Assembly: GCA_004292955.1 (NCBI GenBank)
Contig: RDXX01000037.1
Location: 62,001 to 126,000 of the forward strand
Source of the DNA: Oscillatoriales cyanobacterium
GTDB taxonomy: Bacteria > Cyanobacteriota > Cyanobacteriia > Cyanobacteriales > Microcoleaceae
DNA: 64,000 nucleotides
Direction: 5' to 3'
A model generated the notes under the pieces. It saw only the letters and a program-made list of their open reading frames with translations. It was not told the origin of the DNA and did no database searches. The stretch's first letter is position 1, and each line of letters opens with the position of its first letter. A program made the position numbers and the translations under genes. This document shows, piece by piece, positions 4,641-63,314 of the stretch.

Positions 4641-4784
4641 TATAGGAATTATCCAGGGAGTGAGGCACAAATTGGTAATTGGTAATTGCCAAGAAAGCGA
4701 CCGCAATGAAATTGTTTTATAGTGAGGAATAACCTCATCTCCAGAGGGAGCATCCCAATGAATGCAAAAAAGCAATTTTTTTAC

Positions 4785-13291: not shown

Positions 13292-13349
13292 AGTGCGAGC
13301 GTCCCCGCTCGCGTGCTTGTACAAGCACGCGAGCGGGGACGCTCGCACT
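13292..13349. repeat. Perfect 58-bp palindrome
   Basis: The 29-nt arm AGTGCGAGCGTCCCCGCTCG... is repeated perfectly in inverse orientation with no spacer, centred between 13320 and 13321 on TTGTACAA. It lies 57 bp after the MidA-like gene and could end transcription, or be a palindromic mobile element. A second hairpin, GCCTCAG...CTGAGGC, lies near 13455-13475. The rest of this 339-bp gap has no gene. Confidence 0.9.
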
Positions 13350-55311: not shown

Positions 55312-55911
55312 TTAAAAATTTAGCACAATAAATACGGAAGAACCCTGTTTTTTAACAGCACGAGCGATTAAAGGTGCTTTCTTTTCTAATCCTTCTAAAT
55401 TAAGTTCATTTTCTCGATACATCCGATACCACTCCTGACGTTGTTCAATCACCCATTCACTATTCTGAAGCTGTAACTTTTTGAGAGTAAATTCTGCTCG
55501 ATCGCGATCGCCAGCAGGAACCGCATCAGTCAAAACCAACTGACAAGAAGGTAGGATAATCTCAAACCAATTATCTTCTACTTCAAACGGATCGAGAATT
55601 TGTCGATCGTAAGTTCCTTTGCAGCTATTTACCCGTTGCAAAGCATAGCGATAGTTTTTCCATTCATAAATCAAATGGCGGTTTTCTGGTTTACTTTTAC
55701 TCAAATAATGATCCACAGTACCCATCCGACTCGGTATGTGCATCACCGAATAACCACAAAGATTGTGGAACTCTTTAGCTAATTGAGGTTTGAAGCTAGA
55801 CCAAAAATCTTTTGGTTCTTTACCGGGATTTTTATCTAACCAATGATTCCCTGCTTTTCGCACCTGTTCCTCAAAATTCGTTGGTTCCGGTGGCGGAGTA
55901 AATCGCATCAT
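55312..55911 (-). CDS. HNH nuclease, Septu PtuB-like
   Basis: About 200 residues from the ATG at 55911 (MMRFTPPPEP), which follows GAGGTAGAGTAAAG and lies two bases after the ATPase stop; the track starts ten codons earlier. GTVDHYLSKSKPENRHLIYEWKNYRYALQRVNSCKG follows the HNH layout DHY.SKS...W.NY...N..KG used in PtuB and retron-associated HNH proteins. The zinc-type CxxC is reduced to CGYS. Functionally it would be the DNA- or RNA-cleaving subunit of the ATPase next to it. A wider restriction-modification context is indicated by the upstream methyltransferase gene. Confidence 0.75.
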   Translation of the reverse strand: MMRFTPPPEPTNFEEQVRKAGNHWLDKNPGKEPKDFWSSFKPQLAKEFHNLCGYSVMHIPSRMGTVDHYLSKSKPENRHLIYEWKNYRYALQRVNSCKGTYDRQILDPFEVEDNWFEIILPSCQLVLTDAVPAGDRDRAEFTLKKLQLQNSEWVIEQRQEWYRMYRENELNLEGLEKKAPLIARAVKKQGSSVFIVLNF

Positions 55912-55913
55912 CT

Positions 55914-57602
55914 TTACTCTACCTCGGTGCTGACAATCCATCGAGGCCAGAAGCGATCGTGTTCTGGTAAAACTCGCAGGAGTTCCTGATGAATTTGCTC
56001 TTTAGTTCTCAGGTATTCAGGAAAAGTTTCCATGCTGTCTCCTCGCATGAAGGTATATGCTGCATCAATCGCTATTTCTGCTTCGCGAGAACGCGCTTGT
56101 TTTAATCCAAAAATATCGGAAGTTAGCCACCCCACAGCATCCCCATGTTTTGTCCAAGGAACTTGATTAAGAGTTACATCTTTACCATGTAACTCAAACA
56201 AAAATAACTTATCTTGTTCCTCATCAAATTCAGGCTCGATTGAGGCAAGTACAAGAGGAGAATGAGTGGTCGCTATTAACTGAACTTGCATTTCATTTTT
56301 AAGACTTTTAACTACTTCTAATATCGCAGGAAGAATCGATCGTTGCCAAGCTGGATGTAAGTGAGCTTCAACCTCGTCTATTAAAAAGACTATTTGATCG
56401 ATAGGTTCTTTCTGTCGTAACTTAGCTGCTTCGATATGTTCATGCCACGTCCACATTAGTATGTAAGCAAGTCCTAAAATTCGTTTTATTCCTGCTGATG
56501 CATAGATAATAGGCACATTTCCATAAGGAAAATTTAGCGTAGGAATATCACGGGTATCTTCTATAGAAACCCGTGTGGGCTTCCCAGGTTCCATCAATTC
56601 ATCTTCATGAGAAGAAAGTTTTCTAATCATAGAAGAGAATATTTCAAATGTAGACTCTTCTCGCTGTCGTTGCCAATTGACCCAATCGTGAATTAAACCA
56701 TTACATAGAACTTTATTATCGGTTCTTAAGCCATTCCAAAGATGATCGGAAGTAAAGTTATAGATACTGGACTGTTGACGAACCGGGTCAAAAACTGAAA
56801 ATCCACCATCAACACGGACATAAATAATCAAGCTTCTTAACAAGGGAGGTACTCGCAGATTCAGCCATTTCTCATTTGAAAAACTAAAAAGGCTACGATA
56901 TTCCTCAGAATCTCTCTCATGGCTCAACACAGAAGTAATTTCTGGTGTTTTCCCTTCTACCTGTTGAGGCCAAGCAGGTCGATCAACCCAGTTTCCGGTT
57001 AGTCCCCACCAAGCAATATCTAGCAAAAAAGTTTTACCAAGACCATTGTCTCCAGTAAACAAATTGATTCTTTCGCCGAATTCAACATCGAATTCTGGAG
57101 CTGTTCCCACCCATTTTAGGTGAAGTTCTTTCAGCATCTTATGGTGAATAGATCCATCAAATTCTAAGTAGTATTCAGAATCAGATAATTGATACAGACG
57201 GATATAGTCTCTACCATAGGCTTGAAGTGTCTGGCTTGTAACAGGTTCAAATTGTTTCAGGACACCACTTTTTTCTAGCTTGCCTTTAATCCAACGTCCT
57301 AAAATTTTTAAATCATCTTTGGATCTAAAGTTTTTGTGATTTGCTCCTTGAGTTTGGCAATCAAATGTTAAACCATCATCTGTATGAGCGAGAAAATTAC
57401 CTTTTGGATAGATAGGATCGCTTATTGTTTTTGAATCCACAATAAGTTCAACTTCGTACCAATCTCTTGGGATAACTTTACCAGATTTATTCGCGCGCCC
57501 TTTGCCAAAAAAAGTATTGAGATTTGATTGCTGCTGTTTATCAACTCTTGATAATGATATGTCCACATAGGGTGTTTCTGGAGTTATGGTAGGTATGGAC
57601 AT
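55914..57602 (-). CDS. ABC/SMC-type ATPase with N-terminal DNA-recognition-like domain (PtuA-like)
   Basis: 562 residues. Residues about 45-150 (WYEVELIVDSKTI, FLAHTDDGLTFDCQTQG, NFRSKDDLKILGRWIKGKLE, LQAYGRDYIRLYQL) resemble the B3-like DNA-binding domain I recall from NgoFVII-type restriction enzymes. The rest is an SMC/OLD-like ATPase: Walker A GDNGLGKT at 184-191, signature-like IYASAGIKRILGL, Walker B VFLIDEVEAHLHP, H-loop IATTHSP. A good GAGGTG Shine-Dalgarno precedes the ATG. The downstream HNH gene makes it PtuA-like, but a restriction-type recognition domain would be unusual in Septu. It is the middle gene of the operon. Confidence 0.78.
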   Translation of the reverse strand: MSIPTITPETPYVDISLSRVDKQQQSNLNTFFGKGRANKSGKVIPRDWYEVELIVDSKTISDPIYPKGNFLAHTDDGLTFDCQTQGANHKNFRSKDDLKILGRWIKGKLEKSGVLKQFEPVTSQTLQAYGRDYIRLYQLSDSEYYLEFDGSIHHKMLKELHLKWVGTAPEFDVEFGERINLFTGDNGLGKTFLLDIAWWGLTGNWVDRPAWPQQVEGKTPEITSVLSHERDSEEYRSLFSFSNEKWLNLRVPPLLRSLIIYVRVDGGFSVFDPVRQQSSIYNFTSDHLWNGLRTDNKVLCNGLIHDWVNWQRQREESTFEIFSSMIRKLSSHEDELMEPGKPTRVSIEDTRDIPTLNFPYGNVPIIYASAGIKRILGLAYILMWTWHEHIEAAKLRQKEPIDQIVFLIDEVEAHLHPAWQRSILPAILEVVKSLKNEMQVQLIATTHSPLVLASIEPEFDEEQDKLFLFELHGKDVTLNQVPWTKHGDAVGWLTSDIFGLKQARSREAEIAIDAAYTFMRGDSMETFPEYLRTKEQIHQELLRVLPEHDRFWPRWIVSTEVE

Positions 57603-57619: not shown

Positions 57620-58762
57620 CTAAACATTAATCGTAAATTGTAATTGCTGTTGAGAAGCCTCTGATTCTGCGTGTTCTAATCGTTCTTTAATTGACATTAA
57701 TTGCAATTTTTTATTTAAATTGTATAAATCGATTTTCTGATAATCCTCTTGAAATAAGGGAATCAGTGATTCCACAACTTCAACTATGCCATCGGGCGGA
57801 ACTGCATTGCCAATTTGTCTTCTTACTTCAGTAATAGAACCTTCAAAAACAAAATCATCGGGAAAACTTTGCAACCTTGCTCTTTCCCTATTTGTCAATG
57901 AACGGGGTTCGGGATAATGATATCCCCAAGTACCGCCACCACCACCAGCAATAATTGTAGCACAGGGTTTATCTGGATGAATTCGCCGATAAACGTGGCT
58001 GATCATGCCTTTCACATAGTATGGACTATCTTTGGGAATATCAGTAAAATTCCCTCCCGGTTTGATGCGACTCAAAATTTCAATGGTTCGTGGCTGAATT
58101 TTCTGATGTTCTTGATTATATTTGACTTTTTCGACATTTTTGAGTGCTTGGCCGGCAGTTCGATAAGGATAATTGCGATTTTCACCGTATTTTGGCTGAG
58201 GATGTACAAAGTTAAATCCTGTATCCATGCGAATGCCAACTAATAATACTCTTTGGCGAAATTGGGGGACTCCGTAATCCGCAAAATTGTATAGTTTTGG
58301 TTTGACCAAGTAGCCGGGAGCGATACTTTCAAAGTCGGAAATTATTTGTTTGATTGCTTGATAATTATTGGCGCTTAATAAGCCTTTGACATTTTCTGCT
58401 ACAAAAGCTTTTGGCTGTTTTTTATTAACAAAATCTAGAAAGTATGTGTATAAATTGCCTCTGGTTCCTTCCAGTCCTGGACGTTTCCAAATCATGGAAA
58501 AGTCTTGACAAGGAAATCCTCCTATACATATGTCTGCATCTGGAACTTGGGTAATGTCTATATTTTCTATGCTGTCGTTGACGATGACATTGGCGATATT
58601 TCTGCTGAATGTTTTGCAGGCGTATTTGTTGGAGTCGATCGCCCAAACCACCTCAAATCCGGCTTTGTGGAATGGCAAATCCATGCCGCCACAACCTGAA
58701 AACAATGATATCAGTTGCGGTTTGGTTTTCCAGGCGATCGGCTTGAGACGTTCGATTAACAT
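57620..58762 (-). CDS. DNA (cytosine-5)-methyltransferase
   Basis: A 380-residue m5C methyltransferase. Motif I is LISLFSGCGGMDLPFHKAGF near residue 18, motif IV is GGFPCQDFS with the catalytic Cys near 100, motif VI is FVAENVKGL, and motif VIII is FRQRVLLVGIR. Motif IX-X includes the LTNRERARLQSFPDDF and RRQIGNAVPP segments. The target-recognition region between VIII and IX is short and its site cannot be read. It heads an operon with the ATPase (17 bp gap) and HNH genes, as a protecting methylase of a restriction-type system would. The start is ATG at 58762. Confidence 0.93.
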   Translation of the reverse strand: MLIERLKPIAWKTKPQLISLFSGCGGMDLPFHKAGFEVVWAIDSNKYACKTFSRNIANVIVNDSIENIDITQVPDADICIGGFPCQDFSMIWKRPGLEGTRGNLYTYFLDFVNKKQPKAFVAENVKGLLSANNYQAIKQIISDFESIAPGYLVKPKLYNFADYGVPQFRQRVLLVGIRMDTGFNFVHPQPKYGENRNYPYRTAGQALKNVEKVKYNQEHQKIQPRTIEILSRIKPGGNFTDIPKDSPYYVKGMISHVYRRIHPDKPCATIIAGGGGGTWGYHYPEPRSLTNRERARLQSFPDDFVFEGSITEVRRQIGNAVPPDGIVEVVESLIPLFQEDYQKIDLYNLNKKLQLMSIKERLEHAESEASQQQLQFTINV

Positions 58763-58815
58763 ATTAGTTCGCAGTAGGACAAGGGCTGGCTGAATGCCGG
58801 CACCACAAGATAGTA

Positions 58816-58852
58816 ATTATACCAAAATATAGTCGAATTCGACTATATTTTG
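58816..58852 (-). promoter_or_regulatory. Palindromic operator candidate and -10 box of the MTase operon
   Basis: A perfect 30-bp palindrome (centre GAATTC, 58823-58852) lies 60 bp upstream of the methyltransferase start. On the minus strand it is followed by GGTATAAT, a good -10 box, so the palindrome overlaps the -35 region. It could be an operator for autoregulation, or a terminator for the Uma2 gene that ends just beyond it. Confidence 0.4.
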
Positions 58853-58858
58853 ATAATT

Positions 58859-59629
58859 TCATTCTTCATCGTCTAACTCGATCCCAGCTTGACGCAATTT
58901 TTCTGCTAGTCTTTGGGCGCGGACACTTTCGCGATCGGCCCGTTGCCGTTCTTGTTCAGTTCGTTCTTCCGACCACAACAATAACTCGCCTGCTGCATTC
59001 CACCACCTCAGCCAACAGCCTGTTCTCCCTTCGTGGGTTCCTTCCCAAATACCTAAAAATAGGTCTAATCCGGGTATCCAATAACGCCCGTTTTCATCTG
59101 TTTTTTGTAAGTTATAGTGCTCTGATTCCAAAGCATAAACTTCTAAACGAGCTGTTTTCGCTCGAAATATGACGTATCTCGGTACTTTGATTACTTGCTC
59201 ATAAAAAAACCATTTTCCCACCCGTGAGGTAAATTCTACAGAGTATTCTTCTCCGTAGGTTTCTGAGAGAAATTCCATCACGATTTGAGGAATTGTCCCT
59301 TCTGTATGCGGCGTGTAACTGCGGCGAACTTGCGAGACATTTTTGGGATTTACGGGTTTGATGTACATCCAGTCGGGCGCTTTGCAAATAGTTCGCTGTT
59401 CGTCGGTGGCTGCTTCTGGGAAACTTATGCCGGCACAAAGGGCAAAGTTGGAAACTATTAAGGCATCCTGGATTAATTCGGGAAATTCTGTTAGTGGCTG
59501 GCGTAAAGCTGCGGCTAACAATGGTTGGCTTTCATCTTCCACGGGGTCATCTGGTAGTTGGAAATCTTCTGGTAGTAGCGGCCAGGTGATTGTGAGCTTT
59601 GTGGCTGAGTTTTTAGTTGCTACAAACAT
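58859..59629 (-). CDS. Uma2-family (DUF820) PD-(D/E)xK protein
   Basis: A 256-residue Uma2 protein of the long cyanobacterial type. Key parts: ICKAPDWMYIKPVNP near residue 84, IPQIVMEFLSETYGEEYSVEF, GKWFFYEQVIKVPRYVIF (nuclease-like core with Asp/Glu), IPGLDLFLGIWEGTHEGRTGCWLRWW, and a C-terminal coiled coil ending AEKLRQAGIELDD. The family is greatly amplified in cyanobacteria and its function is not known. It lies upstream of the methyltransferase operon on the same strand but with 96 bp and a palindrome between them. Confidence 0.85.
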   Translation of the reverse strand: MFVATKNSATKLTITWPLLPEDFQLPDDPVEDESQPLLAAALRQPLTEFPELIQDALIVSNFALCAGISFPEAATDEQRTICKAPDWMYIKPVNPKNVSQVRRSYTPHTEGTIPQIVMEFLSETYGEEYSVEFTSRVGKWFFYEQVIKVPRYVIFRAKTARLEVYALESEHYNLQKTDENGRYWIPGLDLFLGIWEGTHEGRTGCWLRWWNAAGELLLWSEERTEQERQRADRESVRAQRLAEKLRQAGIELDDEE

Positions 59630-59699: not shown

Positions 59700-59762
59700 G
59701 TTCGTAGTAAGGACTTTAGTCCTTATCTTCAGAGATTGAGGACTAAAGTCCTTACTACGAAC
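59700..59762. repeat. Palindromic repeat GTTCGTAGTAAGGACTTTAG family
   Basis: A 63-bp inverted repeat, GTTCGTAGTAAGGACTTTAG...CTAAAGTCCTTACTACGAAC with a 12-nt loop. A close relative lies between the fructokinase and gluconokinase genes (63.26 kb), and a degenerate one at 6.17 kb. Confidence 0.88.
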
Positions 59763-63254: not shown

Positions 63255-63314
63255 AGGTTCGTAGTGAGGACTTTAGTCCTCCGAAAGAAGGACTAAAGTC
63301 CTCACTACGAACCT
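63255..63314. terminator. 60-bp palindrome between convergent genes
   Basis: AGGTTCGTAGTGAGGACTTT...AAAGTCCTCACTACGAACCT with an 8-nt loop, then TTTTA. It lies 16 bp after the fructokinase stop and 14 bp before the gntK stop, so it can terminate both. It is also a member of the repeat family at 59.70 kb. Confidence 0.7.

Follow-up and report, generated by a model that had tools for sequence, protein, structure and literature searches.

Genes at the locus

A palindrome separates a Uma2-family gene from a methyltransferase operon in the window, i.e. the whole 64-kb stretch of DNA analysed here, and all of these genes lie on the minus strand. The first gene of the operon encodes a 5-cytosine DNA methyltransferase (57620-58762) of 380 aa, in which the Pfam DNA_methylase domain begins at residue 17 and there is no N-terminal extension; domain searching found neither an N-terminal helix-turn-helix nor a second DNA-binding domain in the protein. 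The methyltransferase is present in all 30 genomes of the genus compared (the window genome and 29 others), and several further genera of the family have it too. Core to the genus, yet with a downstream partner that varies or is absent, the gene has the character of a methyltransferase that is inherited vertically and often stands alone.

In the window the partner is an ATPase (55914-57602, minus strand) that, according to domain and PADLOC profiles, fuses an NgoFVII_C B3-like DNA-binding domain (residues 19-139, E 2.9e-28) to a PtuA-type AAA ATPase (residues 156-560). It is followed by a gene for a PtuB-like HNH protein (55312-55941, minus strand; PADLOC matches of 7.4e-175 for PtuA and 6.6e-72 for PtuB). 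Given this combination of a B3 domain, a PtuA-type ATPase and a PtuB-like HNH protein, the operon appears to encode a Septu-like pair coupled to a methyltransferase, and not a plain restriction enzyme. Among the other genera of the order, G317, G161 and others have the gene of an NgoFVII-type PLD-B3 restriction enzyme after that of the methyltransferase. G016 and G026 have the B3 domain as a stand-alone protein of 149 aa with the C-terminus YYLEF, and in the window genome and its relatives the same domain is fused to PtuA. The fusion was found only in this genus in searches of related contigs and genomes, and the B3 domain occurs in two of 386 genomes of a phylum-wide sample. The occurrence of the domain within a PLD-B3 enzyme, alone, and fused to PtuA suggests that the recognition domain of a restriction enzyme may have passed to a Septu system, with loss of the nuclease, while the methyltransferase was retained as protection. 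The B3-PtuA ATPase is in this respect a more notable feature of the locus than the palindrome.

The site of NgoFVII is GCSGC (PMC4081073). Neither GCSGC nor GCWGC occurs in the promoter, so they were rejected as a cognate methylation site there, and GCSGC is hardly avoided within the 64 kb. Other sites are strongly avoided in the window (GGWCC, 2 seen against 58 expected; CTGCAG, 0 against 31; TTCGAA, 0 against 30), hinting at other restriction specificities in the lineage. The Uma2-family gene (58859-59629, minus strand), as identified by domain search and genome comparison, is a recombining neighbour outside the operon. G004, G011 and G019 have a truncated copy of this gene or none, with only a C-terminal remnant in the first two, and the Uma2 tree conflicts with that of the methyltransferase, which indicates that recombination is active at the locus.

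The promoter and the palindrome

The palindrome is perfect over 30 bp (58823-58852, CAAAATATAGTCGAATTCGACTATATTTTG), with two 15-bp arms (CAAAATATAGTCGAA and TTCGACTATATTTTG), zero loop and the centre GAATTC, as the original prediction had it. Inverted-repeat analysis and RNA folding extend it to 36 bp (58820-58855), with 18-bp arms and one mismatch that becomes a U.G wobble on the minus-strand RNA. From the Uma2 stop codon it is 3 bp to the 36-bp form and 6 bp to the 30-bp form, and 57 bp separate the 36-bp form from the methyltransferase ATG (58762). The predicted TATAAT-like box directly beside the palindrome was also confirmed, at 58821-58816 on the minus strand, immediately downstream; the span 58816-58852 given in that prediction is the palindrome plus this -10 box. 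With TGG in front, the box forms an extended -10 element (TGGTATAAT, 58816-58824, minus strand), a putative promoter that overlaps the palindrome and from which transcription would start near 58809. A sigma-70 promoter scan did not list the methyltransferase promoter, which lacks a convincing -35 element at the required spacing. Between promoter and ATG, sequence and alignment reveal a small leader hairpin (GCCGGCATTCAGCCAGC, 58785-58801, minus strand), which resembles the GGGCATCNNGCCC palindromes dispersed in the genome; a related motif has 102 strand-wise matches there.

A TTTGGTATRAT-like box (TTTGGTATAAT-like, with the variants TTTGGTATGAT, TTTGGTATAGT and TGTGGTACGAT) is found in 26 of the 30 genomes, where it starts about 60 (60-67) bp before the start codon. 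It is lacking in G009, G022 and G028. In G002 (L078, minus strand, about 1195-1185), a deletion that fuses the end of Uma2 to about codon 9 of the methyltransferase has taken out the promoter, the palindrome region and the start codon. The claim that the palindrome lies over the operon promoter is supported by this extended -10 at a similar distance in 26 genomes. Given its conservation across the genus, the extended -10 is probably a functional element that drives the core cytosine methyltransferase gene.

The palindrome itself is far beyond chance expectation: when the 64-kb window was simulated 60 times with an order-2 Markov model, zero-loop palindromes with arms of at least 12 never arose, and the region, folded as single-stranded RNA, outscores dinucleotide shuffles by 5-6 standard deviations. 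The 7.3-Mb genome has a single copy of the 30-bp palindrome, and of its 20-bp core, with up to three mismatches allowed. The palindrome is therefore not a dispersed repeat, and it belongs to no visible regulon. Mobile carriage by viruses was considered and rejected, as a degenerate form of the core had no match in the viral contigs searched. The window also contains a longer, perfect, G+C-rich palindrome of 58 bp (13292-13349), and long palindromes are therefore not unique to the methyltransferase promoter.

Distribution and origin of the palindrome

The sequence just upstream of the promoter box has at least four architectures in the genus. A near-complete palindrome is confined to one clade (clade A, type A), where it is intact in four genomes (the window genome, G011, G016 and G004), split in G018 and degraded in G019; within type A, G001 and G005 have the palindrome core only. 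The eight genomes of type B carry the short core TCGAATTCGA, or something near it, without extended arms, with one of them, G008, having built a different palindrome. Type C has no related palindrome, and type D has another inverted repeat, mostly decayed. The split in G018 (L003, about 4660-4757) is due to a MITE-like insertion with the ends TATAGCAATCCT...AGGACTGCTATA. G010, G025, G006, G008 and G003 carry intact homologous ATPase/HNH genes without the palindrome. It is retained in G016, which has lost the ATPase part, and it is perfect in G004 and G011 next to the Uma2 remnants. Since the promoter box is found in 26 of 30 genomes and the palindrome in one clade, it is the promoter, and not the palindrome, that is the conserved part. 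Absence of the palindrome beside homologous operons had been named in advance as grounds for abandoning the claim of a regulatory site, which accordingly fails at the level of the genus.

Both arms align base for base with those of less palindromic relatives, and the differences are clustered in the left arm. The left arm CAAAATATAG/TAAAATATAG is restricted to clade A, whereas the left side in G001, G005 and type B reads CAATTGAT[TG]AG or a one-base variant. More fully, G001, G005 and most of type B have CAATTGAT[TG]AGTCGA (CAACTG in G020, CAATGG in G029), and the window has CAAAATATAGTCGA, matching the right arm. Relative to G001, G005 and type B, the window thus differs by one clustered change, in which five bases are replaced by four and the arm grows from 8 to 15. 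A similar but independent cluster distinguishes G008 from G020, where TTC is replaced by AGCGC with the gain of AAGCGCGATCGCGCTT. Computed after the pattern was seen, the probability that random replacement of the tract gives the same gain is 0.004-0.011 for the five-base tract of the window and 0.0004-0.001 for G008. Clustered, pairing-extending changes in both the window and G008 fit template-switch (quasipalindrome) mutation, a process reported to create and repair perfect hairpins (PMC8794818).

Our preferred reading, to which we give a probability of about 0.6, is that the conserved promoter bears the function and that the palindrome is a clade-specific product of template switching at a quasi-palindrome, and not a dedicated control switch. 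An older short core beside the promoter, AGTCGAATTCGA, would have let the nascent strand fold back, so that the right arm, TTCGACTATATTTTG, could be copied into the left arm during replication. A CAATTGATTAG-like sequence would thereby have become CAAAATATAG, with pairing lengthened from 8 to 15-18 bp, and the same kind of change at the same spot may have given the different palindrome of G008. The palindrome may still modulate the promoter passively, through a hairpin or cruciform over the -35 region. While the palindrome, its single copy, its restriction to a clade and the clustered differences that extend its pairing are direct observations, we infer which way the sequence changed, that template switching was the mechanism and that no dedicated regulator exists. 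The outgroup types are without the extended arm. However, the polarity of the left-arm change is not certain, since the tree places G001, with its unextended left arm, weakly within clade A and the conflict between the Uma2 and methyltransferase trees points to recombination; this conflict also makes the Uma2 tree unusable for polarising the left arm.

A paired G.C to A.T change in G004, G016 and G011, which alters both sides and leaves the symmetry perfect, is a further pattern of the kind expected from template switching, but selection for symmetry could explain it too. Covariation is weak, with two of 18 pairs changed on both sides, a level reached by 47 of 500 shuffles, and it was set aside as proof of a selected helix. 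The 66-bp promoter-plus-leader is sometimes more conserved than the gene (100% against 90.6% between G016 and G004), and selection on the right arm is therefore inseparable from selection on the promoter.

Competing readings and known systems

The best rival is that the palindrome is a clade-specific operator, where an unlinked dimeric repressor or activator would bind the dyad over the -35 region and control methyltransferase transcription in clade A. The position is ideal for a repressor, at about -46 to -11 relative to the putative start, a promoter with an extended -10 could cope with a -35 region that departs from the consensus, and the symmetry is perfect in the window genome, G011, G016 and G004 despite the paired base change. 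We nevertheless consider this reading doubtful: the genome has no second site with up to three mismatches in 20 bp, which also led us to reject the regulon of an unlinked transcription factor; the open reading frames listed for the locus (Uma2, the methyltransferase, and the PtuA-like and PtuB-like genes) include no C-protein gene, and the methyltransferase has no helix-turn-helix; and the palindrome is broken by the insertion in G018, has decayed in G019 and does not occur in other lineages with the same operon. A combination of the two, in which template switching made a symmetric operator or cruciform switch de novo in one Microcoleus clade, so that the methyltransferase and B3-PtuA/PtuB would be regulated there and not in sister lineages, is improbable; if true, it would offer the traceable birth of a regulatory palindrome.

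That the palindrome terminates transcription of the upstream Uma2 gene was offered as an alternative in the original prediction. We found this reading, or that of an insulator, in which a hairpin would form in read-through RNA just past the stop codon, unsupported and distinctly unlikely. The palindrome does begin within 3-6 bp of that stop codon and folds strongly, other lineages also have inverted repeats in the gap between Uma2 and the methyltransferase, and termination in cyanobacteria is poorly understood, with many non-canonical transcript ends (PMC13289151). However, the stem is A+T-rich and followed by GGTATAATTACT without a U-tract, a terminator scan gave no match, and the dyad is perfect beside the Uma2 C-terminal fragments of G004 and G011 and absent from B-type genomes in which Uma2 is intact. 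The reading with the least to recommend it, that a dispersed palindromic repeat of a REP- or MITE-like kind was copied into the gap, is very improbable. Such repeats abound in the genome (one half-site has 209 matches and another 102), and the same palindrome is split by a MITE-like insertion in G018, but the single copy of palindrome and core largely refutes this explanation, and the base-for-base alignment of both arms with less palindromic relatives also counts against it. Long hairpins of the GTAGTNAGGACTTTAGTCCT type, whose half-site is the one with 209 genome matches, lie at 63255-63314 and about 59700-59762.

It had also been suggested that the operon may be autoregulated through the palindrome, as restriction-modification operons often are. 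The palindrome's uniqueness in the genome, its absence beside homologous ATPase/HNH genes and its persistence in G016 without the ATPase part give this proposal no support. Autoregulation by the methyltransferase in particular is unlikely, because autoregulating methyltransferases act through an N-terminal helix-turn-helix (PMC3874152), which is predicted to be absent here. The locus resembles autorepressing restriction-modification methyltransferases such as Ecl18kI (PMC3874152) in that a dyad overlaps the methyltransferase promoter, and differs from them in this missing domain and in a dyad that is not conserved with the operon. A palindrome over a promoter can thus resemble an operator in one genome yet dissolve under comparison.

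With C-protein-controlled systems the locus shares AGTC/GACT half-sites near a restriction-modification promoter. The C-box consensus is a tandem GACT-N3-AGTC, whereas here the half-sites are reversed (AGTC-N6-GACT) in one dyad, with no tandem boxes and no visible C gene. The likeness to Septu (PtuA/PtuB) is that the operon encodes a PtuA-like ATPase and a PtuB-like HNH protein; it differs in adding a cytosine methyltransferase and an NgoFVII-type B3 domain fused to PtuA. The closest parallel to our preferred reading is with quasipalindrome template-switch mutations (PMC8794818, PMC7202029). Here the changes are known only from species comparison in a recombining locus, with the polarity partly inferred, and they are like those mutations in being clustered, in copying one arm onto the other with extension of the pairing, and in having occurred at the same site more than once. 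The G020/G008 and G001/window series form a small natural record of palindrome creation at one promoter, in which one can study how mutation bias, and not selection, may give rise to regulatory symmetry.
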